Assembly: GCA_947589095.1 (NCBI GenBank)
Contig: CANQBX010000033.1
Coordinates: 1-40,009, forward strand
Source of the DNA: an uncultured Lachnospiraceae bacterium
GTDB taxonomy: Bacteria > Bacillota > Clostridia > Lachnospirales > Lachnospiraceae
DNA length: 40,009 nt
Direction: 5' to 3'
Shown here: positions 13,769 to 39,905 of the stretch, in pieces
How the letters are laid out: every line of letters begins with the position of its first letter
Position numbering within the stretch: the stretch's first letter is position 1
Program-made: the position numbers and the translations under genes
Notes under the pieces: model-generated
Seen by the model: only the letters and a program-made list of their open reading frames with translations
Databases searched by the model: none
Told to the model about the DNA's origin: nothing

Positions 13769-13818
13769 TTTCTTCTCGCCCGGTCTCCTTTCCTTATATT
13801 GTCGCGCTCCTGCAAAAC

Positions 13819-19317: not shown

Positions 19318-19359
19318 CGATCTATGACCTTCCTTACCCCAAAACTCTTTCCGGTCCTG

Positions 19360-20544: not shown

Positions 20545-20731
20545 TCTTGCCTGACTCCTTATCTTCGTCTCTTGCACAGATTCGATCCGCAAGCTCTATT
20601 TCTATTCACATCCACCAGCCGGTTTTCTTCTGTCCACAGCTATCCGCTGCTTTCTCCTGCCTACGCCTGGCTATCAGTTTTTCTTCCATATCATAACTAT
20701 CATTCGGGCTGCCGTTTTCGGCCTAACACAG

Positions 20732-22707: not shown

Positions 22708-22773
22708 AAACTGCCTCCTCCTGTCACGCCTTCCGCGCGGTCCGCGCCGCCGGCAATCTCGCTGTCCTTCTTC

Positions 22774-22802
22774 ATCATACCAGTTTTTCCAGCGCCTGTC
22801 TA
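22774..22802 (-). promoter_or_regulatory. Promoter of the U32-like pair
   Basis: Minus-strand -35 TAGACA (22797-22802), 17-base spacer, -10 TATGAT (22774-22779) preceded by TGG (extended -10). The predicted start near 22767 gives a 60-base leader to the ATG at 22707. Both boxes match 5 of 6 consensus bases. Confidence 0.7.
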
Positions 22803-22897
22803 TGTATCTTTGCACCGACAGGCACGGCTGCATACCCGGAAAGACGCGGCCGCGCTTCACGGCACCGGGATTCTGGATTTTGCGGTAACTGCAGAGG

Positions 22898-23025: not shown

Positions 23026-23310
23026 CTGGGCTTCTGAAACTCAGCCTTTCGAAACCTGGTCATCCGAAGCCCAGCCTTCCAAAGCTCAGTCATCCGAAAC
23101 TCAGTTTTCTGAAGCTTGGTCTTCCGAAATTCAGCCTTCCGAAGCTTGGTCATCCGAAACTCAGTCTTACGAAACTCAGCCTTCCGAAACTCAGTCTTAC
23201 GAAGCTTGGTTTCCCGAAACCCAGCCTTCCGAAGCTCAGTTTTCCGAAACTCAGCCTTCCGAAGCTTCGCCTTCTGCAGCCTCGCCCTCTGCTGCTTCGC
23301 CTTCCGCGGC
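23026..23310. repeat. 15-bp tandem repeat array crossing the end of a binding-protein gene
   Basis: Sixteen consecutive 15-bp units fill 23026-23265; a typical minus-strand unit is GCTTCGGAAGGCTGA. Three degenerate units (23266-23310) continue into the coding region in the same register, encoding Glu/Ala/Gly pentapeptides. The binding-protein stop (TGA, 23251-23253) is the last codon of the first clear unit, and most later units carry the same in-frame TGA. Units vary at a few fixed positions (GCT/GTT, GAA/GAT, GGC/AAC/GAC, TGA/TGG/CAA). The units share a TTCGGAA core. With the 100 bases to the next stem-loop, this fills most of the gap down to 22861. Confidence 0.95.
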
Positions 23311-24864
23311 GGTCTCTTCCGCCTCAGCAGCGAGCATCGCATCCAGCTCTTCCTGGCTGATATCGCCGTTGGCCTTCGCAATGTAAGCGTTCCAGGTATT
23401 GCGGATCGCCTCAGCCTGCTGTGCCGGCGTATTGTTGTCGTTGATGGACCACAGGAACTGGCTGCCCAGATCCAGGCCGCCGATCAGGCTGTGATAGGTC
23501 ACGCGGCCGTTCTTTACCAGACGGGCAATGGTCAGATCCACGGATTCCATATCGCGGAAGTTGCTGTAGTAGCTGTTGACCATGCTGGACTCATCCTCGA
23601 ATCCGGGCGTAGGCTCCGTATACAGATCGTAAACGAAAGCGATCTTCCAGGCTCTGTCCGCGTCATAGCAGCCGGGGATCGAGTAAATATTGTCCTCGTA
23701 AATGTTGGTGTAATCGGTAGCGTTCGGTCCCATCGGGAAGCAGACAAAGCCGAAATCGTCTTCCATGGCGCAGAACTTATGGCTGCTGTTTTCCGGATCA
23801 TAAGCGCCGGCGTTGTAAGCCTGATCCGCCAGGAACACAGCCTCGCCGTTGATGAAGCCTGTATAGCTGTAATCCCAGGCAGCATCCGCCGGATCGGGCT
23901 TGCGGTATTTCTTGAGGATTCTCTCCGCCCAGTTCTGAGCGTCCAGAGTCGCCTGGCTCTCCAGCTCGTTCACATACTTGCCGTCCTTCATGCCCACATA
24001 GTTGGCGTTGTTGGACCAGGTCGCTTCGTTCTTAAACTGGGTGTTATCCGTGATGATCGGCCAGCGGTCGATCTCGCCGTCGTTATCGGTATCAGCATAA
24101 ATCTGCTCGCAGATCTCTTCAAATTTATCCCAGGTCCACTCCATGCTCTCCTGCAGGTTATAGATCTCTTCCGGATCGATGCCGGCCTCCTTCAGCAGTC
24201 TCTTGTTAAAGAACATTCCGCCGCGGGGCTCAGGCTCCTCGCCTCTCATGCCGTAGATCTTTCCGTTCTTGGTATACAACTCATGAACCTTGCTCCCCCA
24301 CTTGGGTTCGGAGAAGTCCAGGCAGTCCAGGGTGGACAGATCATACATCAGATCTGCGTCCATAGCCGCCACAAACTCGGCGCCCGCGCGAAGCACGAAG
24401 ATATAGTTGGTGTCGTCGCCGGCCGTCGCATAGTTTACGAAATCCGTGGGAACGTCAGCCCAGGTGCTGATCGCCTGTCTCTTCACGGTAAAGTTATAGG
24501 TCTCCTGGATCCAGTCCAGATATTCCTCTCTCGCCTCGTCCATCGCGTTCTGCGGCTCGGAATCCGTCCAGTACCAGTCGCGGATAATGACCTCCATGCC
24601 GTCCAGATCATAGACATTGCCGTTCTCGTCGGTCCGCACCGTGTAGGAACCCAGATCCTCCGGTTCCGCCTCTGTGGTCTCAGCCGCCGTTGTGGTCTCC
24701 TCGGAGCCGCCTGCAGCCGCTGTGGTCTCGGGAGCTGCCGTGGTGCCGGGCGCCGCCGTAGTCTCCGCCGCGCCTCCGCCGTTACCGCCGCATCCGGCCA
24801 TGCTGACTACCATACCTGCAGCCAGGGCAGACGCCATTACCTGGGTCAATTTTCTTCTTCTCAT
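23251..24864 (-). CDS. Carbohydrate ABC importer solute-binding lipoprotein
   Basis: A 537-residue family-1-type extracellular binding protein. The signal peptide ends in lipobox SMAGC (Cys25), followed by a Thr/Ala/Glu-rich tether (about 30-70) and a two-lobed binding domain with typical elements such as GKIYGMRGE, FFNKRLLKEAGI and FINGEAVFLADQAYNAG. It would sit on the outer face of the membrane and deliver sugar to the permeases encoded just upstream. The ATG at 24864 follows AAGGAGG. It is the last gene of the operon. The C-terminus is a short Glu/Ala/Gly repeat (AEGEAAEGEASEG) that merges with the 15-bp array. Ligand unknown; the context suggests xylan-derived oligosaccharides. Confidence 0.88.
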   Translation of the reverse strand: MRRRKLTQVMASALAAGMVVSMAGCGGNGGGAAETTAAPGTTAAPETTAAAGGSEETTTAAETTEAEPEDLGSYTVRTDENGNVYDLDGMEVIIRDWYWTDSEPQNAMDEAREEYLDWIQETYNFTVKRQAISTWADVPTDFVNYATAGDDTNYIFVLRAGAEFVAAMDADLMYDLSTLDCLDFSEPKWGSKVHELYTKNGKIYGMRGEEPEPRGGMFFNKRLLKEAGIDPEEIYNLQESMEWTWDKFEEICEQIYADTDNDGEIDRWPIITDNTQFKNEATWSNNANYVGMKDGKYVNELESQATLDAQNWAERILKKYRKPDPADAAWDYSYTGFINGEAVFLADQAYNAGAYDPENSSHKFCAMEDDFGFVCFPMGPNATDYTNIYEDNIYSIPGCYDADRAWKIAFVYDLYTEPTPGFEDESSMVNSYYSNFRDMESVDLTIARLVKNGRVTYHSLIGGLDLGSQFLWSINDNNTPAQQAEAIRNTWNAYIAKANGDISQEELDAMLAAEAEETAAEGEAAEGEAAEGEASEG

Positions 24865-24903
24865 CTTGTTCCTCCTTTTTTAATGAGTATTTTTTTATTT
24901 TCG

Positions 24904-24940
24904 CGGCGCCTTTACAACAGGCATGACAGTGTCGGCGCCG
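24904..24940 (-). promoter_or_regulatory. Intercistronic stem-loop before the binding-protein gene
   Basis: Arms CGGCGCC (24904-24910) and GGCGCCG (24934-24940) lie in the 86-base gap between the MalG-type permease and the binding-protein gene. The flank after the hairpin on the minus strand is A-rich, not U-rich. Such stems often protect the downstream mRNA so that binding protein outnumbers permease. Role inferred. Confidence 0.5.
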
Positions 24941-24950
24941 GGAAGATACA

Positions 24951-25958
24951 TTACATTTTTATTCCCGAACTGCTCAGACTCTCTACGAAGCCCTTCTGGA
25001 CGAAGAGGTAGAGGATGAGCAGGGGGGCGATCACCATCAGGGTGCCGGTGGCGACGATGCAGTTGGTGTAGCCGATGCTGGCGCCGCCCTGGATCTTAAG
25101 CACATTCTGGAAATACTGTCCCAACCGGTCCGCGATCCTCGTCAGCTGGATGGAGAGCAGTTCCACATTTCCCAAAAACATCGAGGAATAGAAGCCGTCA
25201 GTCCACTGCCATACGAAGGCGAACAGGAAGCAGGATGTCAGGATCGGCTTCGCGTCCGGGAGCATGATGCTGAAAAATGTCCGGAGCGTTCCGCAGCCGT
25301 CCACGTAAGCCGCCTCCTCCAGTTCAAACGGAATATTGCGGAAGAACTGGCGGATCAGGAAGATATACAGCCCGTTCTTCAGTCCCATGCAGCCCGCGCT
25401 CATCATGTAGTACGGAAGCACCGAACCGCGCAGGTTCAGCGTGGATCCCGTCGTCGCCTTGAAGATTCCCAGGATATCGAAGAACCGGAAATGCAGATGC
25501 AGCGAGGTGGCGACGGTCTGCGGCGGGATCACGATCATGAGCAGCACGCAGGCAAACCAGAAATTCTTAAGCGGGAACTTAAAGCGCGCAAAGCCGTAGC
25601 CCACCAGCGTGCAGACCGCGATCTGAAGAAACGCGATCGACAGCGAGATGAACAGGGTGTTCATAAACGCCTTCCCGTATCCCATGAAATCCGCGGCCAG
25701 CTGGTAATTCGCCGCGGTCACATGCAGCGGCACGTTCACGACCAGCGGGTTATACAGATCGCTCTCCTTCATCAGGCTGATGGACAGCTTGTTCAGGATC
25801 GGCTGCAGGATCAGGAAGCACATTCCGAACAGCAGGAAGGCCCGAATGATCCGCACGCAGATGCCCATGACCGTCTTCTTAAGCAGATAGCCTTCGGACA
25901 TGCGGTTGCGCTCCCAGAAATTGTTGTTCTTCTTAATCTTACCTGCCGCTTTACTCAT
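24951..25958 (-). CDS. Sugar ABC importer permease, MalG type
   Basis: A 335-residue membrane protein with about six transmembrane segments and the ATPase-contact EAA loop EEAAYVDGCGTLRTFFSIMLP in its C-terminal half, which defines the MalG/LacG class. It pairs with the MalF-type permease upstream; the ATG at 25958 overlaps that gene by 8 bases. The pair moves a sugar delivered by the lipoprotein encoded next. No ATPase gene is near, so a shared MsmK-like ATPase encoded elsewhere probably drives it. The extracytoplasmic segment after the first helix is fairly long. Confidence 0.88.
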   Translation of the reverse strand: MSKAAGKIKKNNNFWERNRMSEGYLLKKTVMGICVRIIRAFLLFGMCFLILQPILNKLSISLMKESDLYNPLVVNVPLHVTAANYQLAADFMGYGKAFMNTLFISLSIAFLQIAVCTLVGYGFARFKFPLKNFWFACVLLMIVIPPQTVATSLHLHFRFFDILGIFKATTGSTLNLRGSVLPYYMMSAGCMGLKNGLYIFLIRQFFRNIPFELEEAAYVDGCGTLRTFFSIMLPDAKPILTSCFLFAFVWQWTDGFYSSMFLGNVELLSIQLTRIADRLGQYFQNVLKIQGGASIGYTNCIVATGTLMVIAPLLILYLFVQKGFVESLSSSGIKM

Positions 25959-26883
25959 AGTAATACACCACCTTCGACAAGAATAACGCGCATAGGCCGA
26001 TCGCCGCGCCGACGATCACAAAATAGATCCAGGCCATTGCGGAGGAGAAACCGTAGTCCAGATACAAAGTCATCTGTTCCGTGATCATCTCCATGACCTC
26101 ACTGTCGGTCCGCATACAGAAGTCGACGATCGTATAAACCACATTGACTAAAAGCATGGAGCTGATCATCGGGAAGGTGATCTTCCAGAGGCTCTCCCAT
26201 GCGGTACAGCCCTCAATATCCGCCGCCTCATACATACTCTCGGAGATCGTCTGCAGGGCCGAGAGGAAGATCAGGATCTGGATGCCGGAGGAGATGGCCA
26301 CGTCGTAAATGCCGTCCACGACCTCGAATACGGTCTCGAAGACCCTGCTTCCCACGCCGCTGGTCACCAGGATGTTCTCGATCGCGGCGGTAATGCTGGT
26401 GTCGCTGTTGGCGCTCTGCTGGATCGTCTCCTGCAGGCCGGCCAGCAGCGTATTGTCATATTCCACGCCCAGGATGACGCCGGAGGAAATGATCACCGGC
26501 AGGAAGAACACGGCTCGTACAAATGCCCTCCCCCTGAACTTCTGGTTCAGGATCAGCGCCACGAAGAAGCTGAATACCAGAACCGCTATGGTATTGACCA
26601 CCATCTTCCCCAGCTCCTCCGTCAGGAGCCGGTTGAAATCCGGATCGATCAGAAACGCCTTTTTGTAGTTCTCGATCCCGTTAAAGACCGGCTGAAAGCC
26701 GCTTGTGCTGACATTGACCGTACTGAGGCTCATATACAGCGACTGGAACAGAGGTTTCACCATAAAGAGCAGAAAGCCTACAATAAACGGGCTTATGAAC
26801 AGATAACCGGATATGGCTTTCCGTTTCTGAAGACCTGCCGGTTTTTTCTTCTTCTTCATATTCTTCACCGTTCCTTTCTCCAT
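25951..26883 (-). CDS. Sugar ABC importer permease, MalF type, with enlarged outer loop
   Basis: A 310-residue permease with a Lys-rich N-terminus, about six transmembrane helices and the EAA loop YEAADIEGCTAWESLWKITFP. Between the helix near AVFFLPVIISSGVILGV and the next helix lies an unusual segment of about 55 residues, including ANSDTSITAAIENILVTSG, larger than the outer loop of most MalF/UgpA-type subunits. It starts 4 bases after the DUF5696 gene stop and overlaps the MalG-type gene. An alternative start at Met9 is possible. It forms the channel with the MalG-type partner; the enlarged loop may contact the membrane-bound protein encoded upstream (inference). Confidence 0.85.
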   Translation of the reverse strand: MEKGTVKNMKKKKKPAGLQKRKAISGYLFISPFIVGFLLFMVKPLFQSLYMSLSTVNVSTSGFQPVFNGIENYKKAFLIDPDFNRLLTEELGKMVVNTIAVLVFSFFVALILNQKFRGRAFVRAVFFLPVIISSGVILGVEYDNTLLAGLQETIQQSANSDTSITAAIENILVTSGVGSRVFETVFEVVDGIYDVAISSGIQILIFLSALQTISESMYEAADIEGCTAWESLWKITFPMISSMLLVNVVYTIVDFCMRTDSEVMEMITEQMTLYLDYGFSSAMAWIYFVIVGAAIGLCALFLSKVVYYYE

Positions 26884-26887
26884 CCGT

Positions 26888-29491
26888 TTATTGTCTCACC
26901 GCTACGTAATCCCTGGCCGGAACGTTCGTGCCGTCCTCCGCCCGGTAATCTTCATAGCTGTAGTTCACATAGACCTTCGTGCCGTCCTCGTAGGAGGTGC
27001 AGGTCACCATATCCGTCAGGTACTTATGATCCGTCATCCTCTGGTTAAAGGTGTGGCCGAGTTCGCTGTTATAGCGGTTATAGATCTCCGCTGCCTTATC
27101 TTTCCAGGAATCGTAACCGGCGCCGAAATACTTCGTGTAGTTCGTCGACTGGATCGCGAAGGCGGTCTCCTTCATGAAGGTAAATGCCAGCCCCGCGCCG
27201 TATTCCGCCGATTTCAGCAGTTCGTTCTCGTAATCCTGCACCAGGTTCAGAGGCTCGCCGGTGTAATTGGCGAAGCCGTGGACCGCCAGCTGGTAGAACG
27301 GCACCATCCGGTCAAGGATCGTGTACTCTGAGCCGCCCAGGTCCATGTTCGTGATCATGTCGGCGTAAGGCATCGCGTAGTCATTTCCCTCGTTGATCAT
27401 GATGCCCTCTCCCGCCTGCTTCGCCTTCTCGAACTTGCTGACCTGCACGGCCACCTGCTTCTGCCTGGTCTGCAGGTCCGTCTCATCGAAATCGGAGGAG
27501 ACCTCGCTTCCCATATTCCGGAAGGATACGCCGGCGCCGTTTGCCGCCGCGTAGCCGATCAGGTTATCCGCCATCTTGTCAATGTTCTCATGGCTCAGCA
27601 GGTAGTAAGGATCTTCGTAATCCATCTGTCCGAAGGTGATCTTCGAATAATCGTAAAGCTCCACCCTCTCCTGGCTCGCCAGACGCGCCGCGTCCGTAAA
27701 TACGATGAAGCCGTTCAGGATATTGCTGTTATAGGCGTAGTCGGTGACGCCGTCCAGATAAAGCTCCACGCCGTTATCTTTCGCGTAGCTGATCAGCGAC
27801 TTCAGCGCTTTCGTGCCGCCCAGCGCGGAGACCGGTTTGATCTTCGTAAACAGCTTCTGCTTTATGCCGCCGTTGGCCCAGCCGGAAAGCTTGACGTACA
27901 GATTCCCGAAGCCGGCGTTCTGCAGATTGGAAAGGATCTCCTGCGCCTCCGTAAAGCTGGTGAGTTTGATCGGCTTATCGACCGGGACGCCAAGAACCTG
28001 CTCCACCTTATCCACCGCGCCCAACAGTTCGATCGCGGCCGGCGCGCTGCCGTCCGCCAGAGGCGTAAACTGCTCCGGATGCTTCGCGGCCAGATAATCG
28101 TGGTAGACATCCGCCAGTTCCACATAGCTGCCGGTATCCGCGAAGCGGTAGCGCTGCACCAGACTTTCATCCGGAAGCTCCTCCTCGTAGACGAACATCA
28201 TGCCGTTATAGCGGTCGCCCACGTCGTACTGCTCGCGGTGGCTCATGCTGTAGACCGCGTTCACGTAATTATAGCTGTTCGTCTTGCCGCTCACGTCCGC
28301 CTGAATGGATGCGTAGGCTGCGCCGTCCTCCAGCATGCAGAGGAAGGAATTGTCTCCCTTGCTGACGCCGAACACGCCGTAATACGCCATCGTGTCATGT
28401 ACCAGCGCCTTGCGGTTGGTCGCCATATCCCAGCCGTAGAGGTTCGCGTAGTAGTTGCTCTGCGCGATCTTGCCGTTGTTGAAATTGATCAGCGCGCCGC
28501 CGCCTTCCGGCACCAGCAGATAGCCCTGCTCATCGACGCCGCCCGCCCCGAAATACGGCAGGATCGTCATCGTGTAGATCGGATAGTCGCTTAAGAACTC
28601 GATATCGCCCATGGGGACCTCGACCACCAGGTCGTCGCCCTCCAGCCGGTAGATCATGCTGATATTGAAAACTGCCTGCTTGCGCGTGCTGCCGGCGCTG
28701 CCCAGTTCCCTGTCCTCCAGATACTCCTCGTAGGTATAGCCGACCGATTCAAAGATCTGCTGCATCTTATTGCGGATATTCTCCGTCGCGTTCTCGCGGA
28801 TCACATAGCAGACCTGCGTTTCCAAGATCGGATAGCTGGCCAGAAGTTCATCCTTCTTCTCCTGATCGCGCTTGCTTAAATTGTTGATGTCATATTCCTT
28901 ATAGTACTGGTTCACCATGACTGCGTCGGATTTGCTCATCAGCGCCTGATAGGCTTCCATCCGCTCCTTCGGGATCACCGGCGGGATAACGAATTCCTTC
29001 TCCAGCTTGCCGATGGTGTAGTTGACGCGGATGGAGTCGGCCGACGGCTCAATCTCGTAGATCTGGTTCTCCATACTGTAATCATAGTTGTTAAAGATCG
29101 TATCGACGCCGTTCGTTGTACTGTAGACCATCATCAGCGTGGACTGCAGGTTTCCCTTCTCCAGCGTCAGCGCCTTCGGGTCGTCGGCCGCGTCCGGCGG
29201 ATTCGAATACCAGACCATGCCCGTATCCTTCACCGTCAGCGAAAACTGGGTCGTCGCCGAATCCATCACGAACTTCAGCCGGTCATTCTCCAGTACGATC
29301 TCCTGTTCTTCGCCCTCATAGGCGTTGGCCCGGATGATCTCTTCCTCCTCCGGCGTCTCCTGGTAGAGCATGATATACGCGAAGAGGCCACCAATGACTA
29401 AGAGGATCAGGAAGGGACCGATCAGGCTTTTCAGCCGGCTTACAACGGCTTCCTTCAGCTCTGCATTCTTGACTGCTTTGTCTTTCTTCAT
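26888..29491 (-). CDS. DUF5696-type membrane-anchored protein, possible glycosidase-like fold
   Basis: An 867-residue protein with a single N-terminal transmembrane segment (about 22-44) and a large outer part. The first half is beta-rich (YGVFGVSKGDNSFLCMLEDG). The second half reads as alternating strands and helices of a barrel: NLYVKLSGWANGG, GVELYLDGVTDYAY, GAGVSFRNMGSEV and GIMINEGNDYAMPYADMITN. Acidic residues after these strands would suit a catalytic or sugar-binding site. I recognise it as the uncharacterised DUF5696 type that occurs with sugar ABC genes; the hydrolase-like fold is inference. It starts 16 bases after the Yip1-family gene and precedes the second permease pair. A role in trimming or presenting glycans to the importers is plausible but unproven. 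Confidence 0.72.
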   Translation of the reverse strand: MKKDKAVKNAELKEAVVSRLKSLIGPFLILLVIGGLFAYIMLYQETPEEEEIIRANAYEGEEQEIVLENDRLKFVMDSATTQFSLTVKDTGMVWYSNPPDAADDPKALTLEKGNLQSTLMMVYSTTNGVDTIFNNYDYSMENQIYEIEPSADSIRVNYTIGKLEKEFVIPPVIPKERMEAYQALMSKSDAVMVNQYYKEYDINNLSKRDQEKKDELLASYPILETQVCYVIRENATENIRNKMQQIFESVGYTYEEYLEDRELGSAGSTRKQAVFNISMIYRLEGDDLVVEVPMGDIEFLSDYPIYTMTILPYFGAGGVDEQGYLLVPEGGGALINFNNGKIAQSNYYANLYGWDMATNRKALVHDTMAYYGVFGVSKGDNSFLCMLEDGAAYASIQADVSGKTNSYNYVNAVYSMSHREQYDVGDRYNGMMFVYEEELPDESLVQRYRFADTGSYVELADVYHDYLAAKHPEQFTPLADGSAPAAIELLGAVDKVEQVLGVPVDKPIKLTSFTEAQEILSNLQNAGFGNLYVKLSGWANGGIKQKLFTKIKPVSALGGTKALKSLISYAKDNGVELYLDGVTDYAYNSNILNGFIVFTDAARLASQERVELYDYSKITFGQMDYEDPYYLLSHENIDKMADNLIGYAAANGAGVSFRNMGSEVSSDFDETDLQTRQKQVAVQVSKFEKAKQAGEGIMINEGNDYAMPYADMITNMDLGGSEYTILDRMVPFYQLAVHGFANYTGEPLNLVQDYENELLKSAEYGAGLAFTFMKETAFAIQSTNYTKYFGAGYDSWKDKAAEIYNRYNSELGHTFNQRMTDHKYLTDMVTCTSYEDGTKVYVNYSYEDYRAEDGTNVPARDYVAVRQ

Positions 29492-29507
29492 GGTTCTCCC
29501 CTCCCCG

Positions 29508-30164
29508 TCACATTCGGAACAAGATTTCCCGTCCGATGGAAATGAAATACACGACGCCGGAACTGATCATGCTGAAGAACAAAAGCAGGATGAACACCAT
29601 CACCAGCATGGCGACGATCGTAGCGAACGAAAACCCGATGGTCTTCGCCAATGTGTACTCATGGATCTCCATCATCGCGCATATGAACAAAGCCACCGCC
29701 CATACCAGGGAAAGCGTACTTAACACCGTGTAGAACTCCGCCTCTTCCACCGTGACCATATTGCTGAAAACGATCAGCGGAAACTGGACCAGCGGGTAAG
29801 GCGTCATCGCGTAGCAGGACGCCATATAGATCTGCGACAGCCGCCCTTTTCCGTCGAACAGCGTCGTCAGGCCCCAGTTTCCTACGCACCACAGGGCCAG
29901 CGGGAACAGGATGCTGGCGATGTAGAGGAAAATATTGATGCGGTCCCAGTTCACCCGCACAAAGATGAAGCTGGTAAACTGAAGCTGCATGATCCGCGCC
30001 AGCACCGTCAGAAACAGGATCGTGTTGGCCGCCGCGATCGACCCGCGCTTCTCATGGGTCAGGTCCCAGAACCCGTCCAGAGGATGGGTACAGCAGTACA
30101 ATGCGAAGCGCAGCGTTGACAGATAATGATTCGAATGGATTTTCTCTTTCAGCGTCGCTATCAT
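29508..30164 (-). CDS. Yip1-family multispanning membrane protein
   Basis: A 218-residue protein with a short hydrophilic N-terminus containing CCTHPLDGFWDLTHEKRG and about five transmembrane helices, typical of bacterial Yip1-domain proteins. No enzyme motif is visible. Its start overlaps the stop of the NHL/TPR gene by 4 bases (ATGA), and the DUF5696 gene follows 16 bases later, so all three are made together. By position it may be a membrane scaffold for the two large anchored proteins. Function unknown. Confidence 0.78.
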   Translation of the reverse strand: MIATLKEKIHSNHYLSTLRFALYCCTHPLDGFWDLTHEKRGSIAAANTILFLTVLARIMQLQFTSFIFVRVNWDRINIFLYIASILFPLALWCVGNWGLTTLFDGKGRLSQIYMASCYAMTPYPLVQFPLIVFSNMVTVEEAEFYTVLSTLSLVWAVALFICAMMEIHEYTLAKTIGFSFATIVAMLVMVFILLLFFSMISSGVVYFISIGREILFRM

Positions 30165-31672
30165 GACTGCCTCCCTTTCTTTAACTCGAAGTAATCCGAA
30201 GTGTCGATCTCGTGCTTAATCTTCCGGATCCGTCCGACCAGAAGCGGTACGCACAGAACCGCGAACAACAACAGGAAGATGATCAGGATATGTTCCTCCA
30301 CCCACTGCTTGCGGTACTGCTTGAACGCCTTGGAATAGTTGTCTTCGTCGTATTTTAACTTGAAGTAGTCCATGGCTTCCTTATACCGTCCCTGCCGCAG
30401 AAGCGAGCGGCCGATGCCGATGTAGGCCAGGTCGCAGTTGCCGTTTAAGTCCATGACCTTCTGCCAGGACTCGCCGGACTCCGTATAGTATCCGTCCTGG
30501 AACTGCTCGATGGCCTGATAGATCAGGCTGCCGTACTCCGTGGGCGTGAACAGGGTCAGGCTGGCGTCGATGGAATCCAGTACCAGCAGATCGTGTCCCA
30601 TATGTTCGAGTGCCGCCGGCTGGCGGAAATAGCCGTCCATATTGCCGGCGCCGCCGAAGGCGTAGAGCATCCGGCCCTGATCGTCGTAGGCGAAAAGCCG
30701 GCCTCTGGTCTTATCCAGACCCACGTAGACCTTGTTATCCAGTGCCGTGATATCCACGAAGAGCGACGGACCGTTATAGCCGCCCGCGTCGTCCCACTCG
30801 ATATCGCCGATCACGTACCAGTCGCCGTTCTCGATCAGGATATCGTTGCCCAGCATATTCAGACGCCGGATGGGATCGGCCGCGCCGGAATCCAGATCGT
30901 CCTCATTCACGTTCATCGTGCAGACGAAGACGAAGCCTTCCGGATCGATATAGACATTGTCATACTCCGTGGGCACGAAGGATTCCATCTGCGCCCTCTG
31001 TTCCTGGGTCGCCAGCCTCTTCCAGATGTAGTCCGTCCAGTCGTAGATGACCTTGGTGGCTCCCACGAATCCGGAGAACTGGCCGTCATTTTCAAATTTG
31101 ATCAGGCCCTGGTTCACATTGGTGGCGATGCAGTAGACGCGCCCCGCCGTATCCACGGAAAGCTTGGTCGGCGTAAAGACGTCCTTGTTGCTGAAGTTGG
31201 AATCGTCCGGCTTCGTGAATTCCATGATGTAGTTCAGATCCATATCCAGCTTCAGGATCCTCTGGTTGCCGCCGTCGCAGATGAACATGTAGCCGTCGTC
31301 CGTCACATCCACATCCGTGGGGCCGGAAAATGTATTCGGCTCCGCCCCGTTGAAACTGTCTATTACACGGGACAGCTCGATCGTATCCTGGTTCACGCGC
31401 TTCAGTTCCAGGATCCGGTTGTTGCCGGTATCGCAGATGTAGATCATATCGCCGATCACGTTCAGTCCCTGAGGGCTCTGAAGCCTTCCCTCAAGTCCCA
31501 TATCCACGGCGGTATACACCTTTTCAACCGTATAAGCGTCGGGAGAATACTGCACATCCCCCCAGTAATCGTAATTGTAGGTATAGCCCTCGTCCGCAAG
31601 CGCCGTCATGGCGGAGGCCAGGGTGAGAAGCATACCGATCAGTAACGCGCCAAATCGTCTTGTCTTCTTCAT
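30161..31672 (-). CDS. Surface NHL-propeller/TPR protein with C-terminal membrane anchor
   Basis: A 503-residue protein. A signal peptide (about 1-26, ending TALADEG) leads to an NHL-type beta-propeller (about 60-380) with repeated GL-VIGDMIYICDTGNNRI-like blades, for example VDVTDDGYMFICDGGNQRI. Next come TPR-like helices (about 385-445; YIGIGRSLLRQGRYKEAMDYF) and a transmembrane helix (about 462-480) with a basic cytoplasmic tail. It should face outward. NHL propellers bind proteins, RNA or glycans, and TPR helices bind proteins, so a binding or assembly role fits best. The gene starts 12 bases after the MalG-type permease stop and overlaps the Yip1-family gene. Confidence 0.8.
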   Translation of the reverse strand: MKKTRRFGALLIGMLLTLASAMTALADEGYTYNYDYWGDVQYSPDAYTVEKVYTAVDMGLEGRLQSPQGLNVIGDMIYICDTGNNRILELKRVNQDTIELSRVIDSFNGAEPNTFSGPTDVDVTDDGYMFICDGGNQRILKLDMDLNYIMEFTKPDDSNFSNKDVFTPTKLSVDTAGRVYCIATNVNQGLIKFENDGQFSGFVGATKVIYDWTDYIWKRLATQEQRAQMESFVPTEYDNVYIDPEGFVFVCTMNVNEDDLDSGAADPIRRLNMLGNDILIENGDWYVIGDIEWDDAGGYNGPSLFVDITALDNKVYVGLDKTRGRLFAYDDQGRMLYAFGGAGNMDGYFRQPAALEHMGHDLLVLDSIDASLTLFTPTEYGSLIYQAIEQFQDGYYTESGESWQKVMDLNGNCDLAYIGIGRSLLRQGRYKEAMDYFKLKYDEDNYSKAFKQYRKQWVEEHILIIFLLLFAVLCVPLLVGRIRKIKHEIDTSDYFELKKGRQS

Positions 31673-31684
31673 CTTCCACCTCCG

Positions 31685-32590
31685 TCATTCCTTCAGTCCG
31701 GAGCTGGCCATGGTCTCCAGGGTCTGGCTCTCGGAAAGAATGAAGGTTATGATCGGTACGATCATAACGACCACAGTGACAGCCGCCGCCTGCCCGGTAC
31801 GGGCGATACCGCCGCTCTGGATCTGCTGCAGCGCGTAGACCAGGGTCTTCTTCTCCTCGGAGTAGATGAAGGTCGCCGCCCGGTTGTTCCACAGGCTCTG
31901 CACGGAGAAGATGATCAGGGTCAGCCACGCGGGCTTGACGTTCGGCATAACGATCGTAATGAAAATCTTCCACAGGCTGGCGCCGTCGATCTGCGCCGCC
32001 TCGATCAGCGACATCGGAAGTCCCTCCATGAACTGCTTCATCAGGAAGAGTCCGATCGGCGCCGCGAAGGCCGGAACGATGATTGCCCAGTAGGTATCCA
32101 CCCAGCCAAGGGCGTTGATGATCAGGTAGTTGGGGATCGCCGTTACATAGCCGTTGAACATCAGGGCCACGACGACCACATTGAAAAATGTCTTCCCGCC
32201 CGGGAAATCGTACTTGGCCAGCACGAAGGCTCCCATGGAACAGATGATCAGATGGCCGGCCGTACCGACTACCGTGATAAATACGGTGTTGAACGCGTAC
32301 CTGGAGAAGGTCACCCAGGACTTGCCCATCGTCACGAACAGATCCGAGAAGTTGTCGAGCGTCGGGTTCTGCGCGAACAGCTTCGGCGGGAACATAAACA
32401 GCTCATCCAGGGGCTTTAAGGCGCTGTTGACCGCGAACACCAGCGGGAATACCATGGCCAGCGCGACCAGCACCAGGAACAGGTAGACAAAGAAATCTCC
32501 CCAGATCGAACGGTTCGGTTTTCTGCGCTTTAATACTTTCTTATGTACCTGCTGTTTTGTCTCTTTGATCTCTTTATTCTTCTTCGCCAT
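31685..32590 (-). CDS. Sugar ABC importer permease, MalG type
   Basis: A 301-residue permease with about six transmembrane helices, a Lys/Arg-rich N-terminus and the EAA loop IEAAQIDGASLWKIFITIVMP. The end TLETMASSGLKE is typical of MalG/LacG-class subunits. It begins one base after the MalF-type stop. It pairs with the 312-residue permease and is probably served by the 982-residue binding protein at the head of the operon. No ATPase gene is present. Confidence 0.9.
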   Translation of the reverse strand: MAKKNKEIKETKQQVHKKVLKRRKPNRSIWGDFFVYLFLVLVALAMVFPLVFAVNSALKPLDELFMFPPKLFAQNPTLDNFSDLFVTMGKSWVTFSRYAFNTVFITVVGTAGHLIICSMGAFVLAKYDFPGGKTFFNVVVVALMFNGYVTAIPNYLIINALGWVDTYWAIIVPAFAAPIGLFLMKQFMEGLPMSLIEAAQIDGASLWKIFITIVMPNVKPAWLTLIIFSVQSLWNNRAATFIYSEEKKTLVYALQQIQSGGIARTGQAAAVTVVVMIVPIITFILSESQTLETMASSGLKE

Positions 32591-32591
32591 G

Positions 32592-33530
32592 TCACGTTCC
32601 CACCCTTCTTAACAGTCCCTGTACGGCCTTCTTGCAAAGGATCATCACCAGAAATAACAGCGTCGCGATGGCTGAAGCGTAGCCCATCTCGAACCGGGAG
32701 TAACCGTAGTCAAACAGGTGGGTCACGACGGTACGGGCCGCGTAATCCGTGCTGGGGTAGCCGCACAGCGCCATGGTCACGTCGCAGACGCCGAAGGCCT
32801 GAGTGATCGCCATGACCGCGCCGAACAGAAGCATGGGCTTCATGTTGGGCAGGGTGATGTACCACAGCTCCTGCCAGCGGTTCTTCACGCCGTCCATGTA
32901 GCCCGCCTCGAACTGGGAGGAATCCACGCCCTGAAGGCCGGCCACGAAGGAAAGGAACCCGGTGCCGAGGCTCATCCAGAGGATGACGATCATACAGATC
33001 GGAAGCATATATTTGGGATCCACCAGCCACAGGATCGGGGCGTCGATGATGCCCGCGTTCATCAGGAAGGCGTTGACGTATCCGTAAGCGTCTCCACGGA
33101 AGAAAATGGAGAAGATCATGAACACGTTGCCTGCGATGGACGGCGCGTAGAACACGACGACCGCGATGGCCCGCAGGTAGCGGGGCAGTTCATTGATCAG
33201 CCAGGCGAACAGGAAGGACAGGATGTATCCCAACGGCCCGGTGATCACGGCGATCATGAAGGTGTTCTTCACGCCTGTCAGGAAGATATCGTCCTGAAGG
33301 ATCAGGCTGATGTAGTTCTGAAGGCCCACGAAGCGGGGCGGCTCCAGGATATTGTAGTAGGTAAAGCTGAAGAAGATGGAGGTCCCTACCGGCAGGATAT
33401 AAAACATAAAGAACAGGATCGCGTACGGGGCCAGGAAGAAATAGCACATCTTACTCTTCTTTGCTTTTTTCAGCGCCACCTGCAGATTATGGCGGCGAAG
33501 CTCGAAATATTTTCTGATATACTCTGTCAT
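32592..33530 (-). CDS. Sugar ABC importer permease, MalF type
   Basis: A 312-residue permease with about six transmembrane helices, beginning near FFLAPYAILFFMFYILPVG. The EAA-loop equivalent is FEAGYMDGVKNRWQELWYITLP, diverged from the usual EAAxxDG but in the right place. It follows the binding-protein gene by 19 bases and abuts the MalG-type gene, the normal binding protein, MalF, MalG order of sugar importers in Firmicutes. Confidence 0.9.
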   Translation of the reverse strand: MTEYIRKYFELRRHNLQVALKKAKKSKMCYFFLAPYAILFFMFYILPVGTSIFFSFTYYNILEPPRFVGLQNYISLILQDDIFLTGVKNTFMIAVITGPLGYILSFLFAWLINELPRYLRAIAVVVFYAPSIAGNVFMIFSIFFRGDAYGYVNAFLMNAGIIDAPILWLVDPKYMLPICMIVILWMSLGTGFLSFVAGLQGVDSSQFEAGYMDGVKNRWQELWYITLPNMKPMLLFGAVMAITQAFGVCDVTMALCGYPSTDYAARTVVTHLFDYGYSRFEMGYASAIATLLFLVMILCKKAVQGLLRRVGT

Positions 33531-33549
33531 GTTTCCTCTCCTTCCCTTC

Positions 33550-36498
33550 CTATTCTAACGGCAGGCCGAACTCGTTCCGCTTCTTGACGATCTCTTCATC
33601 AATGGTAATCGCGTAATCCAGGATCGTCTCCCTGGGATCCTCCTTCTCATTGATGACCTTGCGGATGGCGTTGGTGATGTGGCGTCCCGTATAGTATCCG
33701 CCGGGCACCTCCCGGATGCCCTTTGTCTGCGCCCACTGCTCTGTCAGGACTTCGATGTCATCCGCGCTCCAGGACAGCTGGTTGAACGCGTCGTAATTGG
33801 CGGTGGCGTACCGGGCGGAGGATCCGAGCAATGCCTCCAGTTCCCGTCCGAAGCGGACCTGGGTGTCGGCGTCTGCCCACCATTTCATAAACTCCCAGGA
33901 GTTATTGCGCAGCGCGTCGTTCTCCGTCTTGATCATCATTGTCGCGCTGCCGGTGATGAAATCCGACCGGTCGATGTAGGTGCTTCCGTCCGCGGCCGTC
34001 TTCTCCGTACCCGGTATCAGCGTGAAGTCCCAGAGTCCCCGGATCTCCGGAGCGGAAACCGTCAGCGTGTTGTAGATCGTATAGTTGGTGATGCCGATGG
34101 GCATCTCGCCGGAACGGAACCGGCTGACGAAATCGTAGATCGTCGGAATGCCGTAATCCGTGAAATACTTGGTGTATTCCGCGAAAGCTTCCACCGCGCT
34201 GTCGTCATTTACCGTAGTTTTCGTTCCCGCTTCATTATAAAGATCCCCGCCGTTCTGGAACAGAAGGCTGAAATACATGGTCAGATCCGGCGTATTGGAC
34301 GCGACGCTGGTGCTGGCGCTGGCAGAGCCGCTGCTGCCCGCCGCCGTGGGGATGCCCACGCTTAAGTTGTTGCCCTGGATCGTCGGAAGCATCTCGATCA
34401 GCTCCTGCCAGGTCTGAGGCGGTTCCAGTCCCAGTTCCTGAAGCACATCCTCGCGGTAGAACATGACGTTGAACTGCTGGGTCTCCGGGATTGCGTAGAT
34501 CTGATCGTCCAGACGGTACTGCTCATAGGAGCTCTCCGTATAGGAAGAAAGCACGTCTTTCAGATCGGGGAACTGGCTCAGATCCTCCACCGCTCCGCGC
34601 AGCGCGTAATTGACAGGCTGGTCGGCGCCTACGGAAAGCACCACGTTGGGGCCCCTTCCGGCCACGACGGCGCTTAAGAGCGCGTCCGCCGCCACGATCT
34701 CCACGTTGACCTTAATACCGGTCTCGGGAGTGAAGGTATCGTCCACCATGGTCTTAAGGATGGTGCCCTGGTCACGTCCGGTCAGGACCCACACCTTGAC
34801 CACTTCGTCGCCGTCCGCGTACACATCGCCGACCGCGTCGTAGTCTACGATGAAGGAAGCGCCGAAGGATTTGATCTCATGCAGAGCCTGCATCAGGAAA
34901 TTGGCCTTATCCTTCTCCACCTTCCCTTCCGTGCCGCTGACCACCAGATAGTCGATATCCAGCTTGGTCTCGCTCATGGAAAGGAGCGCGGTGCCGAGGG
35001 CGGTGATATTGTCCTTAAATGTCGTAAATTCCACCGTGATCTTGTTGGGCTGCTCCACAAACCGCTCCAACTGCTGGGCCAGAGTCTGGGCCGTGGCGAT
35101 CCGATCCGCCTTCTGTCCGGAATAGGCCACCATATCGTCCACGATCTTATAAAGACGCTTGGACTCCAATGACATGGCGTCGATGATCTCCGGATAGACC
35201 TGATGGATGTTATAGTCGCGGTACTGGTCCGGATTGGCGCCCGTGTAGATCAGGATCCGGCGGTAGATCTGGTTCAGACGGAAGGTGGAATCCTCCAGCG
35301 CCTCCAGGATGCTGCCCATGCTGCCCAGGGTCGCTTCCAGGCGGATCGTATGCTCTCCCGCGTCCAGATAGATATCGTAGGGTACGCCCGCATCGTCCGC
35401 CAGGGTCAGGCAGTCCCAGTCGTTCGCGTACTCGAAGGAGACTTCTTTCAGTTCCTCAAAGGGAACCTCTCCGTCTATGTACACCATGCGGCTGGACACG
35501 CTGCCGCGCGCGTAATTCTGACGGCCCTTGATCGTGATATTGTAATATCCGTTCTCCGGAACCGTGAATTTCCACTCGATCCACTGTCCGGCGCTGCTCC
35601 AGGCCTCGCCGCCCACATAGTTGAGCACGGTCCGCATCACGGTGTTCGGCTCCGTCGTAGGGGAAGAACGGTCGTATTTGGCGTAAAGGGAAGATTCAGA
35701 ACGGAAGGTAGACGTCTCGCCCTGGACCTTCTCCACATAGCCGAGGCCTTCTCCGGAAGCTGCCCTGCCGGCGTTGGCCGCCTTATACTGCTCGTAGGTA
35801 ATGGGCTGCTCCACGGCCGCCAGCGTCAGCCTGCGCAGTACCACGGGCTCATTCTCGGCTTTCAGGGTCAGGGTGTTGTCTCCCTTCTCAAAATAGAACC
35901 GGTAGGGTTCGGTCACATAGCCCATATCGTCGCGGCAGTAAGCGCTCTGCCACTCATACTCTTCCACCTGGGTTGGGCGGATCTCATTGCCCTGATTATC
36001 CACCTTCACCGGGCCGCCGTCCTTCCAGATCCGCAGGAAGGTAACGTTGGCGGCTTTCTCAAAGGGAAGCTCATCATTGATATACACGGAACGCTCGATC
36101 GGAACGCCTCTGGACTCCACCGTCATGTACTCCAGATAAAGGTTATAGAAACCGGCTTCCGGCACGTTCACATTCCAGGTCACCGTGGAGGCTGGGCCCG
36201 TATACAGGACCTGGGCTTCTCCCGCGTAGTCCGTCTGCACTTCCACGTCCTCGCCGGATACATAGCCCGCCAGATCCACGTCCACGCTCTGGGACGGGAC
36301 CGCCGCGTCCGGATGCGCCTGCAGATAGAGGGTATAGGTTCCCTCCCTTACGGCTCCTTCCACGTCGGTGGTCAGATCGTATCCCTCGTATTTCTCATGG
36401 AAATCCACTTCCCGAAAGAGACCTGGAATCAGGATAAGTCCAAGGACCACGACTATGACGCCAGCTGCAATAAGCAACTTTTTAACAGAATCTTTCAT
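33550..36498 (-). CDS. Membrane-anchored solute-binding protein with two CBM-like modules
   Basis: A 982-residue protein from the ATG at 36498, placed right after a perfect GGAGGTGAT site; an ATG four codons earlier overlaps that site and is unlikely. An N-terminal transmembrane anchor with no lipobox (about 8-28) is followed by two related beta-sandwich modules (about 86-228 and 258-391) sharing ERSVYINDELPFE and SRMVYIDGEVPFE, a helical linker, then a binding-protein domain of about 400 residues (from about 590) with ALRGAVEDLSQFPDLKDVL and FSLLFQNGGDLYNEAG. Ordinary sugar-binding lipoproteins have about 430-550 residues, so roughly 500 are extra. The modules probably bind carbohydrate at the surface. 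First gene of the operon. Confidence 0.82.
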   Translation of the reverse strand: MKDSVKKLLIAAGVIVVVLGLILIPGLFREVDFHEKYEGYDLTTDVEGAVREGTYTLYLQAHPDAAVPSQSVDVDLAGYVSGEDVEVQTDYAGEAQVLYTGPASTVTWNVNVPEAGFYNLYLEYMTVESRGVPIERSVYINDELPFEKAANVTFLRIWKDGGPVKVDNQGNEIRPTQVEEYEWQSAYCRDDMGYVTEPYRFYFEKGDNTLTLKAENEPVVLRRLTLAAVEQPITYEQYKAANAGRAASGEGLGYVEKVQGETSTFRSESSLYAKYDRSSPTTEPNTVMRTVLNYVGGEAWSSAGQWIEWKFTVPENGYYNITIKGRQNYARGSVSSRMVYIDGEVPFEELKEVSFEYANDWDCLTLADDAGVPYDIYLDAGEHTIRLEATLGSMGSILEALEDSTFRLNQIYRRILIYTGANPDQYRDYNIHQVYPEIIDAMSLESKRLYKIVDDMVAYSGQKADRIATAQTLAQQLERFVEQPNKITVEFTTFKDNITALGTALLSMSETKLDIDYLVVSGTEGKVEKDKANFLMQALHEIKSFGASFIVDYDAVGDVYADGDEVVKVWVLTGRDQGTILKTMVDDTFTPETGIKVNVEIVAADALLSAVVAGRGPNVVLSVGADQPVNYALRGAVEDLSQFPDLKDVLSSYTESSYEQYRLDDQIYAIPETQQFNVMFYREDVLQELGLEPPQTWQELIEMLPTIQGNNLSVGIPTAAGSSGSASASTSVASNTPDLTMYFSLLFQNGGDLYNEAGTKTTVNDDSAVEAFAEYTKYFTDYGIPTIYDFVSRFRSGEMPIGITNYTIYNTLTVSAPEIRGLWDFTLIPGTEKTAADGSTYIDRSDFITGSATMMIKTENDALRNNSWEFMKWWADADTQVRFGRELEALLGSSARYATANYDAFNQLSWSADDIEVLTEQWAQTKGIREVPGGYYTGRHITNAIRKVINEKEDPRETILDYAITIDEEIVKKRNEFGLPLE

Positions 36499-36522
36499 AA
36501 TCACCTCCATGGTTTATTGACC

Positions 36523-36717: not shown

Positions 36718-36745
36718 AAAAAAGCACAGACCGTGTGATCTGTGC
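36718..36745 (-). terminator. Intrinsic terminator of the GH43-GH10 unit
   Basis: Perfect 7-base arms (36724-36730 and 36739-36745, GCACAGA/TCTGTGC) with an 8-base loop, followed on the minus strand by six T (36718-36723). It begins 27 bases after the GH10 stop. The clearest intrinsic terminator in the window. Confidence 0.9.
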
Positions 36746-36772
36746 CTTCCTGTGTCATTTTTTCTATCTGTC

Positions 36773-38410
36773 TTATTTGCGCCTGCGGAGATTACGGATT
36801 ATAAACGCTCCGAACAATACGTAAATAAGAAGCGAGAGTATCGTCCCCGCGAGCTGGCCGACCCGCGCGGCTTCCTCTTCCGTGTCAACGATATTATCCG
36901 CTTCCGGCGCTTCGGACGCAGCCGGGGGTTCTGCCGTCTCGCCCGCCGCCGTCAAGGTCTCTATCCCGGCTTCCGTCTCAGCCTCTGTCTCTGCCTCTGT
37001 TTCTTCCTCAGCCACGGTCTCTGCCTCGGTTTCTGCCTCCGCCTCAACCTCCTTCAGCTTCCCTTCCGAAGTCAGCCGCGACGCGTCCGCGAAGACCCAG
37101 AACGAAGGCTTGGGCTCGTAATTATCATCGAACAGAAGCGGGCACTGGGGCTTGACCTTGCTGCTTCCGCCGCCCACGGTGGAACGTCCCTGCAGCCATG
37201 AATATTTGTCCACCACGCCCCAGAACGTGATGCCGCCCACGGTTACGCCGGGCTTGTCCGCCGCCTTCTTAAGCAAGTTGTAGAGCAGGCGGTAGCGGGC
37301 CGCGTGGCGGGCGTATTCGTCTTCTCTCGTGGCGTCCGTGCCGTCATAGCTGTCGCTGGACTGCAGATCAAACTCCGTGATCTGCACCTTACCCACGACT
37401 TCGCAGTAGGTCTCGATCGCCAGGGAGAAGGCGTCGAACGCGGGATCTGTAAGGCTGTAATGTCCCTGCATCCCCATAGCGTCGATCCGGGTGCCCTCTC
37501 CCGGCGCGCCTTCCTCCGCCTTCACCGCCTTCAGAAGTTCCTTGATCCCCACCCGCTTGATATCATTGCACTCGCCGTAATCGTTATAGTACAGTTCCAC
37601 CGAGGCCGGCGCGTACTGGTTGGCGTAGCGGAACGCGTTGATAATATACTCGTTGCTCTGGTACACATGCCACCAGCTGGAATTGCTGCCGTGGGTATCC
37701 TGGGACAGATCCTCGTTCGGATCCTCCGCGTCGGTCCGGTAAGTATTGCCGCTGACAGCCTCGTTCACCACGTCCCAGCCGTAGAACATCCCTGCATAAG
37801 GGCTGTCTTCTCCCGTGAAATGCGTCAGCACCGTCTTAATGTACCATTTCTGGCGCTTATCCATGGTCTCCTTGTCCACATAAGGCTTCGTCTTGTCGTA
37901 ATCCTCGTGGAAGAACCACTCCGGCGTCTGGCTGTGCCATACCAGCACATGGCCCCGCACCAGGATCGTCCGGTCCGGATTCTCATCGTTCCAGGCCTTC
38001 ACCTTGTCAAGCATCCGCTCCACCCGGCTGAAATCCATCACCGGCACCGTGATCATTTCTCCGTCCAGTTCCTCCTCCTTCGTGCCGGGACATCTGCCGT
38101 TGCTGTAGCCGAACAGCGCGTCCGGCTTCAGCTCGTTGCCGAAGGTAACGGTGCTGAAATGAGTGGTCACCAGATCCCACAGCTTCGGATCGTTCATCTC
38201 CCCTTCCGTGATCCCCGCTCCGAAGATCGGGCAAAGCTCCTCTCCTACCACGTCCCGCAGGATCGGGAGCGTTCCGCCGTCATTCTGGCTCATCTCCGCC
38301 GCCTCCGCTTTCTTTATAAATGGATTGCCTGCCATGACGCCGCAGGCGGTCACGACCGCCAGCGCGCCGGCGCATATTCTGTAACTCCGTTTTGCGTTTT
38401 TTCTGCGCAT
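36773..38410 (-). CDS. Cell-surface GH10 endo-1,4-beta-xylanase, membrane-anchored
   Basis: A 545-residue xylanase. Signal peptide about 1-38 (ends AEAAEM), then a GH10 barrel (about 55-445). Acid/base Glu217 in GWDVVNEAVSG, nucleophile Glu346 in VQITEFDLQ, and GHVLVWHSQTPEWF and TFWGVVDKYSWL are all standard GH10 signatures. After the barrel comes a Glu/Ala/Thr stalk (about 455-505) and a transmembrane helix with basic tail (about 518-545), so the enzyme stays on the membrane instead of using a sortase motif, dockerin or binding module. It should cut xylan backbones outside the cell and feed oligosaccharides to the importers. The start at 38410 has a GAGGAGG site. It is 74 bases after the GH43 gene. 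Confidence 0.95.
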   Translation of the reverse strand: MRRKNAKRSYRICAGALAVVTACGVMAGNPFIKKAEAAEMSQNDGGTLPILRDVVGEELCPIFGAGITEGEMNDPKLWDLVTTHFSTVTFGNELKPDALFGYSNGRCPGTKEEELDGEMITVPVMDFSRVERMLDKVKAWNDENPDRTILVRGHVLVWHSQTPEWFFHEDYDKTKPYVDKETMDKRQKWYIKTVLTHFTGEDSPYAGMFYGWDVVNEAVSGNTYRTDAEDPNEDLSQDTHGSNSSWWHVYQSNEYIINAFRYANQYAPASVELYYNDYGECNDIKRVGIKELLKAVKAEEGAPGEGTRIDAMGMQGHYSLTDPAFDAFSLAIETYCEVVGKVQITEFDLQSSDSYDGTDATREDEYARHAARYRLLYNLLKKAADKPGVTVGGITFWGVVDKYSWLQGRSTVGGGSSKVKPQCPLLFDDNYEPKPSFWVFADASRLTSEGKLKEVEAEAETEAETVAEEETEAETEAETEAGIETLTAAGETAEPPAASEAPEADNIVDTEEEAARVGQLAGTILSLLIYVLFGAFIIRNLRRRK

Positions 38411-39885: not shown

Positions 39886-39905
39886 TGCCATTCTCTCCTT
39901 TTTTC

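Follow-up and report, generated by a model that had tools for sequence, protein, structure and literature searches.

A 40,009-nucleotide stretch of DNA from an uncultured Lachnospiraceae bacterium (assembly GCA_947589095.1, contig CANQBX010000033.1; hereafter the window) carries two sets of sugar-importer genes with three genes between them, encoding a protein with an NHL propeller and TPR hairpins (NHL/TPR), a Yip1-family membrane protein and a DUF5696 protein, and raises the question of whether all nine form one system. The parts of this cassette, in the order SBP1-PA1-PA2-NHL/TPR-Yip1-DUF5696-PB1-PB2(-SBP2), where SBP denotes a solute-binding protein and PA and PB the permeases of a first and a second pair, travel together across Bacillota and termite-gut-type Treponema bins. 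We think it probable that the cassette forms a single evolved system for importing oligosaccharides from plant cell walls, which here would be fragments of xylan or arabinoxylan. It is best read as a CUT1-type importer of xylo-oligosaccharides that has extra membrane subunits of its own and draws on a UgpC-type ATPase encoded elsewhere. A system of this kind for taking up plant-fibre sugars appears to be undescribed, and its nearly invariant gene set recurs in many bacteria of the gut, rumen, soil and termite gut.

A compact nine-gene cassette

The nine genes are co-directional on the minus strand at 23251-36510, and gene coordinates together with a Pfam scan of the window proteins bear out the order and families that an initial annotation, made from the letters of the DNA, had assigned to them. 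Pfam E-values are 1e-190 for DUF5696, 3e-11 for Yip1 and 7e-7 for NHL. From SBP1 to SBP2 the intergenic spacings are 19, 1, 12, −4, 16, 4, −8 and 86 bases, so the description of the genes as mostly overlapping or less than 20 bases apart holds with PB2-SBP2 as the lone exception, as do the 4-base overlap of NHL/TPR with Yip1 and the 16-base gap between Yip1 and DUF5696. The cassette consists of the following genes.

33550-36510 (alternative ATG at 36498), minus strand: SBP1, solute-binding protein of 986 amino acids (SBP_bac_8, 8e-26)
32592-33530, minus strand: PA1, first-pair permease, UgpA-like, with EAA motif (Pfam and motif pattern)
31685-32590, minus strand: PA2, first-pair permease, UgpE-like, with EAA motif (Pfam and motif pattern)
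30161-31672, minus strand: NHL/TPR protein with leader, NHL propeller, TPR hairpins and a C-terminal hydrophobic helix (residues 462-480)
29508-30164, minus strand: Yip1-family multi-span membrane protein (Pfam Yip1)
26888-29491, minus strand: DUF5696 protein, GH129-like, with an N-terminal hydrophobic anchor (residues 23-41) and N659 and N700 at the catalytic positions
25951-26883, minus strand: PB1, second-pair permease (Pfam; dedicated subfamily by profile search)
24951-25958, minus strand: PB2, second-pair permease, UgpE/MalG-like (Pfam)
23251-24864, minus strand: SBP2, solute-binding protein, leader with lipobox MAGC (Pfam)

The module is conserved together with its importers

To determine whether these genes belong together, we compared 121 genomic regions, or 119 after dropping L099 and L125, which are copies of L012 and L020. 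Regions L006-L045 are 40 fetched from a phylum sample of 199 genomes (4 from the source genome and 36 others), in which 48 places exceed the DUF5696 cut-off; L046-L125 are the best 80 of at least 586 confirmed matches to the window DUF5696 protein in named contigs, and near kin are therefore over-represented among them. Profiles built from the regions find DUF5696 in 121/121 (by design), Yip1 in 119/121 and NHL/TPR in 118/121. NHL/TPR and Yip1 accompany DUF5696 in 116 of the 119 regions, and the remaining three are cut at contig ends. They are separate genes in 74/119 regions, most commonly with the 4-base overlap (40 of the 74), and one fused protein in 42/119. The Yip1 or fused gene lies immediately 5′ of DUF5696 in 116/119, the exceptions being two cut contigs and L040, where it is relocated behind PB2; PB1-PB2 lie immediately 3′ in 113/119, and the other six are cut at contig ends. 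Of the 115 assessable regions, 86 have SBP1-PA1-PA2 immediately before NHL; the other 29 comprise seven contig-end cuts, L035 (PA2 split in two calls) and 21 in which the set is missing from that place. Among these 21, L025 and L039 have an SBP1-PA1-PA2 set downstream, and L020 has a PA pair downstream.

Whole genomes give the same result. DUF5696 exceeds its cut-off in 16 of the 199 phylum-sample genomes, and strong NHL-Yip1 matches occur in exactly those 16 (NHL part at least 462 bits, separate Yip1 at least 179, anything else at most 73.7). These genomes come from eight families, and DUF5696 and NHL-Yip1 can both be missing from one genome of a genus in which another has them (G120 versus G085). 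Six weak DUF5696 matches in this sample proved to be two DUF6259 proteins and four of the alpha-amylase family. Among 200 genomes of the source's own family, 43 hold full-length DUF5696 and the identical 43 hold NHL-Yip1; 59/200 exceed the Pfam cut-off, of which we counted the 43 with a best match of at least 310 bits, the 16 uncounted having partial matches only (best 172.8 bits). All 74 NHL places counted in the family sample have a same-strand DUF5696 within 4 kb, as do 40 of 43 in the phylum sample and, once fetched, the other three.

The first pass scored at most six DUF5696 and five NHL-Yip1 candidates per genome, and it left 8/48 (phylum) and 3/77 (family) DUF5696 places with no scored NHL match. 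We inspected all 11. NHL and Yip1 lie beside DUF5696 in six (L016, L031, L038, L160, L161 and L162); L158 has a Yip1 end at the contig start and a 270-amino-acid frame between Yip1 and DUF5696; in L157, L159 and L164 the contig end falls inside DUF5696; and L163 is taken up below. Three genomes (G080, G104 and G154) have SBP1-PA1 and no DUF5696 on contigs of 3.1 to 4.3 kb that stop within PA1 or PA2, and so neither support nor refute the association. The possibility that these homologues are mostly found apart thus clearly fails, with the three parts kept together in 116/119 regions and the rest cut at contig ends, both components held by 16/199 and 43/200 genomes, and fusion in 42/119 regions.

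The cassette is inherited and spread as a unit

Across 82 complete cassettes, the distance matrices of the eight conserved parts correlate at 0.86-0.95. The source genome holds five DUF5696 genes, and contig titles with DUF5696 include Lachnospiraceae, Oscillospiraceae, Paenibacillus, Bacillus, Caldicoprobacter and Treponema. In a quick DUF5696 tree, 18 Spirochaetota rows, all Treponema-titled, cluster together (support 97); two rows with Clostridia titles are the closest to this cluster, within a wider set from Bacillota. Such a placement suggests that Treponema acquired the cassette by transfer, although we infer the direction only, because the tree is rooted at its midpoint. The Treponema bins appear from their isolate names to be of termite-gut origin. 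Cassettes also occur on plasmids: in Butyrivibrio fibrisolvens a histidine kinase and response regulator lie nearby, followed by GH43 and then the cassette, and in Paenibacillus cellulosilyticus (L150) the order is ugpC, SBP1, two permeases, a "YIP1 family protein" of fused length, DUF5696 and two permeases. Annotation in both records reads merely "YIP1 family", "NHL repeat-containing" and "DUF5696 domain-containing".

A dedicated second permease and a probable ATPase from elsewhere

In the phylum sample, with at most 11 candidates scored per genome, all PB1-profile matches of at least 250 bits lie in the same 16 genomes; the next score is 168.0 bits, and any other genome gives at most 150.7. 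This search used the PB1 profile, with PB2 tied in by gene order. The PA1 and SBP1 profiles discriminate less sharply: PA1 has strong relatives (384 to 390 bits) without the module in G007, G054, G093 and G127, all of one other family. In the two of these genomes examined more closely, two ABC ATPase genes come after PA1-PA2, and three of the four ATPases carry a MalK OB domain (E 1e-6). The second permease therefore looks dedicated to the module and the first arm recruited. Many cassettes per genome occur in G040, G062, G082, G135 and G165, several of them lacking the SBP1-PA1-PA2 arm, and in those genomes one PA arm might act in trans for several of the reduced cassettes.

The importer parts have CUT1 character: each pair comprises two BPD_transp_1 permeases with the EAA loop, and SBP1 and SBP2 score over Pfam cut-offs. 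All four window permeases match the strict EAA pattern, as do, among permeases of at least 270 amino acids, 96/96 PA1, 90/94 PA2, 91/114 PB1 and 105/112 PB2. PB1 has three solved relatives, AlgM1 (PDB 4tqu) among them. SBP1 has an N-terminal hydrophobic segment, two related CBM35-like domains (E 2e-11 between them) and a binding-protein fold; its CBM_35 match of 26.6 bits is just below the cut-off of 28, and among ten homologues scanned CBM35/CBM6 matches lie around or under cut-off, with none in several. A lipobox occurs in 6/88 SBP1 homologues longer than 850 amino acids and in 60/110 SBP2 homologues longer than 380. In L012 and L015, PB2 is followed by five or six frames labelled as binding proteins or parts of them, an arrangement that would let a single permease receive several substrates.

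The initial annotation had called the two importer sets complete. They are not, because the Pfam scan found no MalK/UgpC-type ATPase among the window proteins, and none is encoded with the permeases; nor is there a UgpC-like protein at E < 1e-60 in the 121 regions. The window does encode two ABC ATPases (12172-13768), which we set aside as importer partners because neither a TOBE nor an OB domain was detected in them at E 0.001. UgpC-type ATPase genes lie elsewhere in the source genome (491 and 453 bits against an NCBIfam cut-off of 432), and the P. cellulosilyticus plasmid provides one cassette with its own ATPase, ugpC directly preceding SBP1. Sugar importers of Bacillota habitually share an ATPase, and a MalK/UgpC-type gene is often absent beside their permeases, a habit that the missing cassette ATPase fits.

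DUF5696 resembles GH129 without its conserved catalytic pair

The DUF5696 profile matches the GH129 structures 5wzn and 5opq, and also 8rzg. Against a set of eight GH129-like proteins from genomes of the family sample (A9), profile-profile comparison gives E 4.8e-16 over 461 columns, and by this alignment DUF5696 is a remote GH129 homologue across the catalytic domain. Invariant A9 motifs YLDVFTCNE and SSEE hold D434 and E477, which fit the catalytic pair of NagBb that we take to be D435 (nucleophile Asp) and E478 (acid/base Glu); the catalytic positions given here for DUF5696 depend on that assignment, in a register set by sequence profiles only. Aligned to D434 and E477 are N659 and N700 of the window protein, so that asparagine stands in place of both the nucleophile and the acid/base residue. 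Across 120 DUF5696 proteins (a count that includes the copies L099 and L125 and omits L112, of 570 amino acids), position 700 is Glu in 14 and Asp in 19, and the 659/700 pair is Asp and Glu in 3 and Asp and Asp in 16. R676, present in 119/120, aligns to invariant A9 R453 and anchors the register, and moving the alignment at 700 by one or two columns changes nothing because columns 696-704 are not acidic as a rule.

DUF5696 is thus apparently a retired sugar-cutting enzyme, judged by its catalytic positions. The initial annotation had pictured the three middle proteins as a surface complex of receptor, scaffold and glycan-processing unit; the survey upholds their association with one another and with importers, whereas the glycan-processing unit is unsupported, because both catalytic acids are replaced in the window and unconserved in the family. 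An alternative is that DUF5696 has diverged yet still acts as a glycosidase at the surface, trimming oligosaccharides just before import with other acids, for example D667, D727 or E763. The 461-column GH129 homology speaks for such an enzyme, as do the conservation of these residues (109/120, 110/120 and 118/120) and the sugar-permease homologues near five of the eight A9 genes; the pattern at the canonical positions, with Asp at 659 in 60/120, Glu at 700 in 14/120, both in 3/120 and Asn at both in the window, makes it unlikely. Comparison with the A9 sequences likewise lowers, short of excluding, the case for DUF5696 as an active GH129 enzyme. The Pfam GH129 model gave no matches over the 199 genomes, controls included, so this absence carries no weight.

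The Pfam DUF5696 model also catches these eight GH129-like proteins of the family genomes (L139 and L142-L148), which look leaderless, have 630-719 amino acids as called and keep the catalytic-pair motifs; the five with sugar-permease homologues nearby are L139, L142, L143, L145 and L148.

A propeller and TPR head tied to a Yip1 membrane domain

Homology shows the NHL/TPR-Yip1 unit to be a propeller and TPR tied to a membrane Yip1 domain. TPR_2 scores 19.8 of the 27 bits required in the window protein and just over cut-off (27.4 bits) in a Caldicoprobacter homologue, and the family profile matches solved TPR proteins and NHL relatives, namely designed "Pizza" proteins and PknD (1rwi). The window Yip1 protein scores 43.9 bits against the Pfam (PF04893) cut-off of 28.6 and has four hydrophobic segments, with five in 45/75 separate homologues; the Yip1 profile gave no believable match to solved structures. 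The 42 fused proteins contain between six and eight hydrophobic segments, which would fit an outward-facing head on a Yip1 base in the membrane.

Bacteriocin clusters can contain Yip1 proteins alongside ABC transporters (PMC11580447, PMC10707071), and the Yip1-family protein YknW modulates ABC transporter assembly through a composite interface (PMC4887032). NHL/TPR-Yip1 could accordingly do no more than help the importers to assemble or to insert into the membrane, in the manner of YknW with YknXYZ, and capture no glycan, a role that would suit the fusion and 4-base overlap binding propeller to Yip1. We think this improbable, on the argument that a large conserved propeller with TPR exceeds what an assembly factor should need. 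Less probable still is that NHL/TPR-Yip1 and DUF5696 form a glycan sensor reporting to regulators and are not transport subunits. Regulatory genes do adjoin some cassettes, with a histidine kinase and response regulator beside the Butyrivibrio cassette, a response regulator and histidine-kinase gene directly before Yip1 in L163, and LacI-type regulators among 3 of 100 sampled flanking genes; an NHL propeller also forms part of the kinase PknD. Yet no signalling domain was found in the three middle proteins of the window, nor in a scan of eight NHL and Yip1 homologues, which gave one weak sub-cut-off Reg_prop match, and the close partner of the module is the PB permease. That two ordinary importers and three unrelated genes share an operon by chance would suit the PA1-PA2 relatives beside their own MalK-type ATPases without the module in another family, but the exact co-occurrence of the parts in the genomes of two samples, their fusion, their matching evolutionary distances and their spread as a unit leave it scarcely credible, and ordinary operon hitchhiking is ruled out by the survey as far as the genomes show.

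Substrate context and points against a single uptake system

GH10, GH43, GH8, GH3 and esterase genes surround the cassette and mark the window as a likely xylan or arabinoxylan locus. Of 353 flanking genes collected from the regions, 100 were scanned, with 8 GH3, 6 GH10, 3 GH130 and 3 GH5.

Several observations weigh against one plant-cell-wall uptake system of fixed composition. The substrate is read from neighbouring genes, and a GH10 resembling that of the window occurs in 12/121 regions; in L150 four LLM-class flavin oxidoreductases come after the cassette and the part of the plasmid displayed contains no glycosidase, so some cassettes may handle a very different substrate. SBP1-PA1-PA2 are missing from directly upstream in 21 uncut, unsplit regions, and the first importer arm is therefore not essential everywhere. 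SBP2 is labelled in 101/119 regions and multiplied in some. Position 659 is Asp in half of the proteins (60/120), so some DUF5696 members could keep part of an active site. One clear exception to the gene set, L163 (G359:C36), has Yip1-DUF5696-PB1-PB2 without NHL, whose position is occupied by the response regulator and an apparently cut-short histidine kinase; deletion or misassembly could explain it.

Proposed mechanism

In the xylo-oligosaccharide importer that we favour, propeller and TPR would face outwards, and NHL/TPR-Yip1 would capture long glycans or binding proteins at the surface and might assemble the dedicated PB1-PB2 permease, much as YknW modulates the assembly of an ABC exporter. 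DUF5696 may bind and orient glycan chains with no cutting. Substrate would then pass to SBP1 or SBP2 and on to the permeases, with the EAA loop as the contact for a shared UgpC-type ATPase that would power import. More tentatively, and with the balance of our judgement against it, the eight conserved proteins could form one supercomplex, in which two importers surround a propeller/TPR-Yip1 receptor and an anchored pseudo-GH129 that presents or threads long xylan chains. Were this so, the cassette would be an ATP-driven glycan intake machine of monoderms, a functional SusCD counterpart also present, by transfer, in Treponema inner membranes, with a glycosidase fold reused as a transport subunit.

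Neighbouring features of the window

The genes upstream of the cassette and a candidate regulatory element are as follows.

36773-38410, minus strand: GH10 xylanase-family protein with a C-terminal hydrophobic segment (Pfam)
38485-39915, minus strand: GH43 protein, with a weak sub-cut-off CBM6-like match at its C terminus (Pfam)
36718-36751, minus strand: candidate terminator-like hairpin lying between GH10 and SBP1, with a stem of 15 pairs and a T run

The hairpin may separate or attenuate the GH10 and SBP1 units; it is a candidate only, because the stretch holds 14 terminator-like sites against 12.3 expected. Downstream of the cassette on the same strand follow two genes without a Pfam family, an efflux-like unit, GH8 and a carboxylesterase and, further along, two GH43 genes with Big_4 domains, GH3 and an aconitase-family gene; the part from GH8 onwards occupies 463-12169. 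The two genes without a family (20732-22860; 342 and 370 amino acids) look alike by eye, and the longer has a very weak Peptidase_U32 match and nothing more. The ABC efflux-like unit (12172-20592) comprises two ATPases, a 1006-amino-acid FtsX permease and two membrane-fusion-like proteins (410 and 786 amino acids) with weak biotin-lipoyl matches in Pfam.

Comparison with known systems

A search of open-licence PubMed Central papers, which covered neither subscription journals nor preprints, found none that names DUF5696, and we found the gene set described nowhere in that literature under the topics of Yip1 or NHL with importers, xylan, termite Treponema and two-permease systems; the excerpted text of PMC6298952 holds nothing on it. 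The cassette amounts to a defined subunit set of nearly strict composition, with several copies in some genomes. To our knowledge, the capture of large glycan fragments and their handover to importers in monoderm fibre degraders is largely an open question. The reading favoured here would propose a sugar-import role for DUF5696 and for a Yip1-family protein, and would give a case of a glycosidase fold turned non-catalytic transport part.

In SusC/SusD of Bacteroidota, surface glycan capture is coupled to import. The likeness would be functional only, surface capture coupled to import being our reading of the cassette, and no SusC or SusD homologue appears among the Pfam matches of the window proteins scanned. 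The Sphingomonas alginate importer, with AlgM1 (4tqu), achieves ABC import of glycans, and PB1 is related to AlgM1; we know of no propeller/Yip1 or pseudo-glycosidase partner of that importer. YknWXYZ of Bacillus shares a Yip1-family membrane protein working with an ABC transporter (PMC4887032), but it is a MacB-like exporter, and the excerpted text mentions no propeller, binding proteins or GH129-like protein. Its partners, a membrane-fusion protein, an ABC ATPase and a MacB-like permease, are absent from the cassette by Pfam, the window having a separate FtsX/ABC unit at 12172-20592. The DUF5696 profile matches the GH129 enzymes 5wzn, an alpha-N-acetylgalactosaminidase, and 5opq, a 3,6-anhydro-D-galactosidase, and the 461-column alignment is with GH129-like sequences; unlike GH129, DUF5696 has an N-terminal anchor and unconserved catalytic acids. 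Closest in overall plan are CUT1 importers of the MalFGK/UgpABCE kind, with which the cassette shares two-permease sets with EAA motifs, extracellular binding proteins and a UgpC-type ATPase outside the operon; unlike them, it has two co-inherited permease pairs, one of a dedicated subfamily, and three extra membrane proteins.

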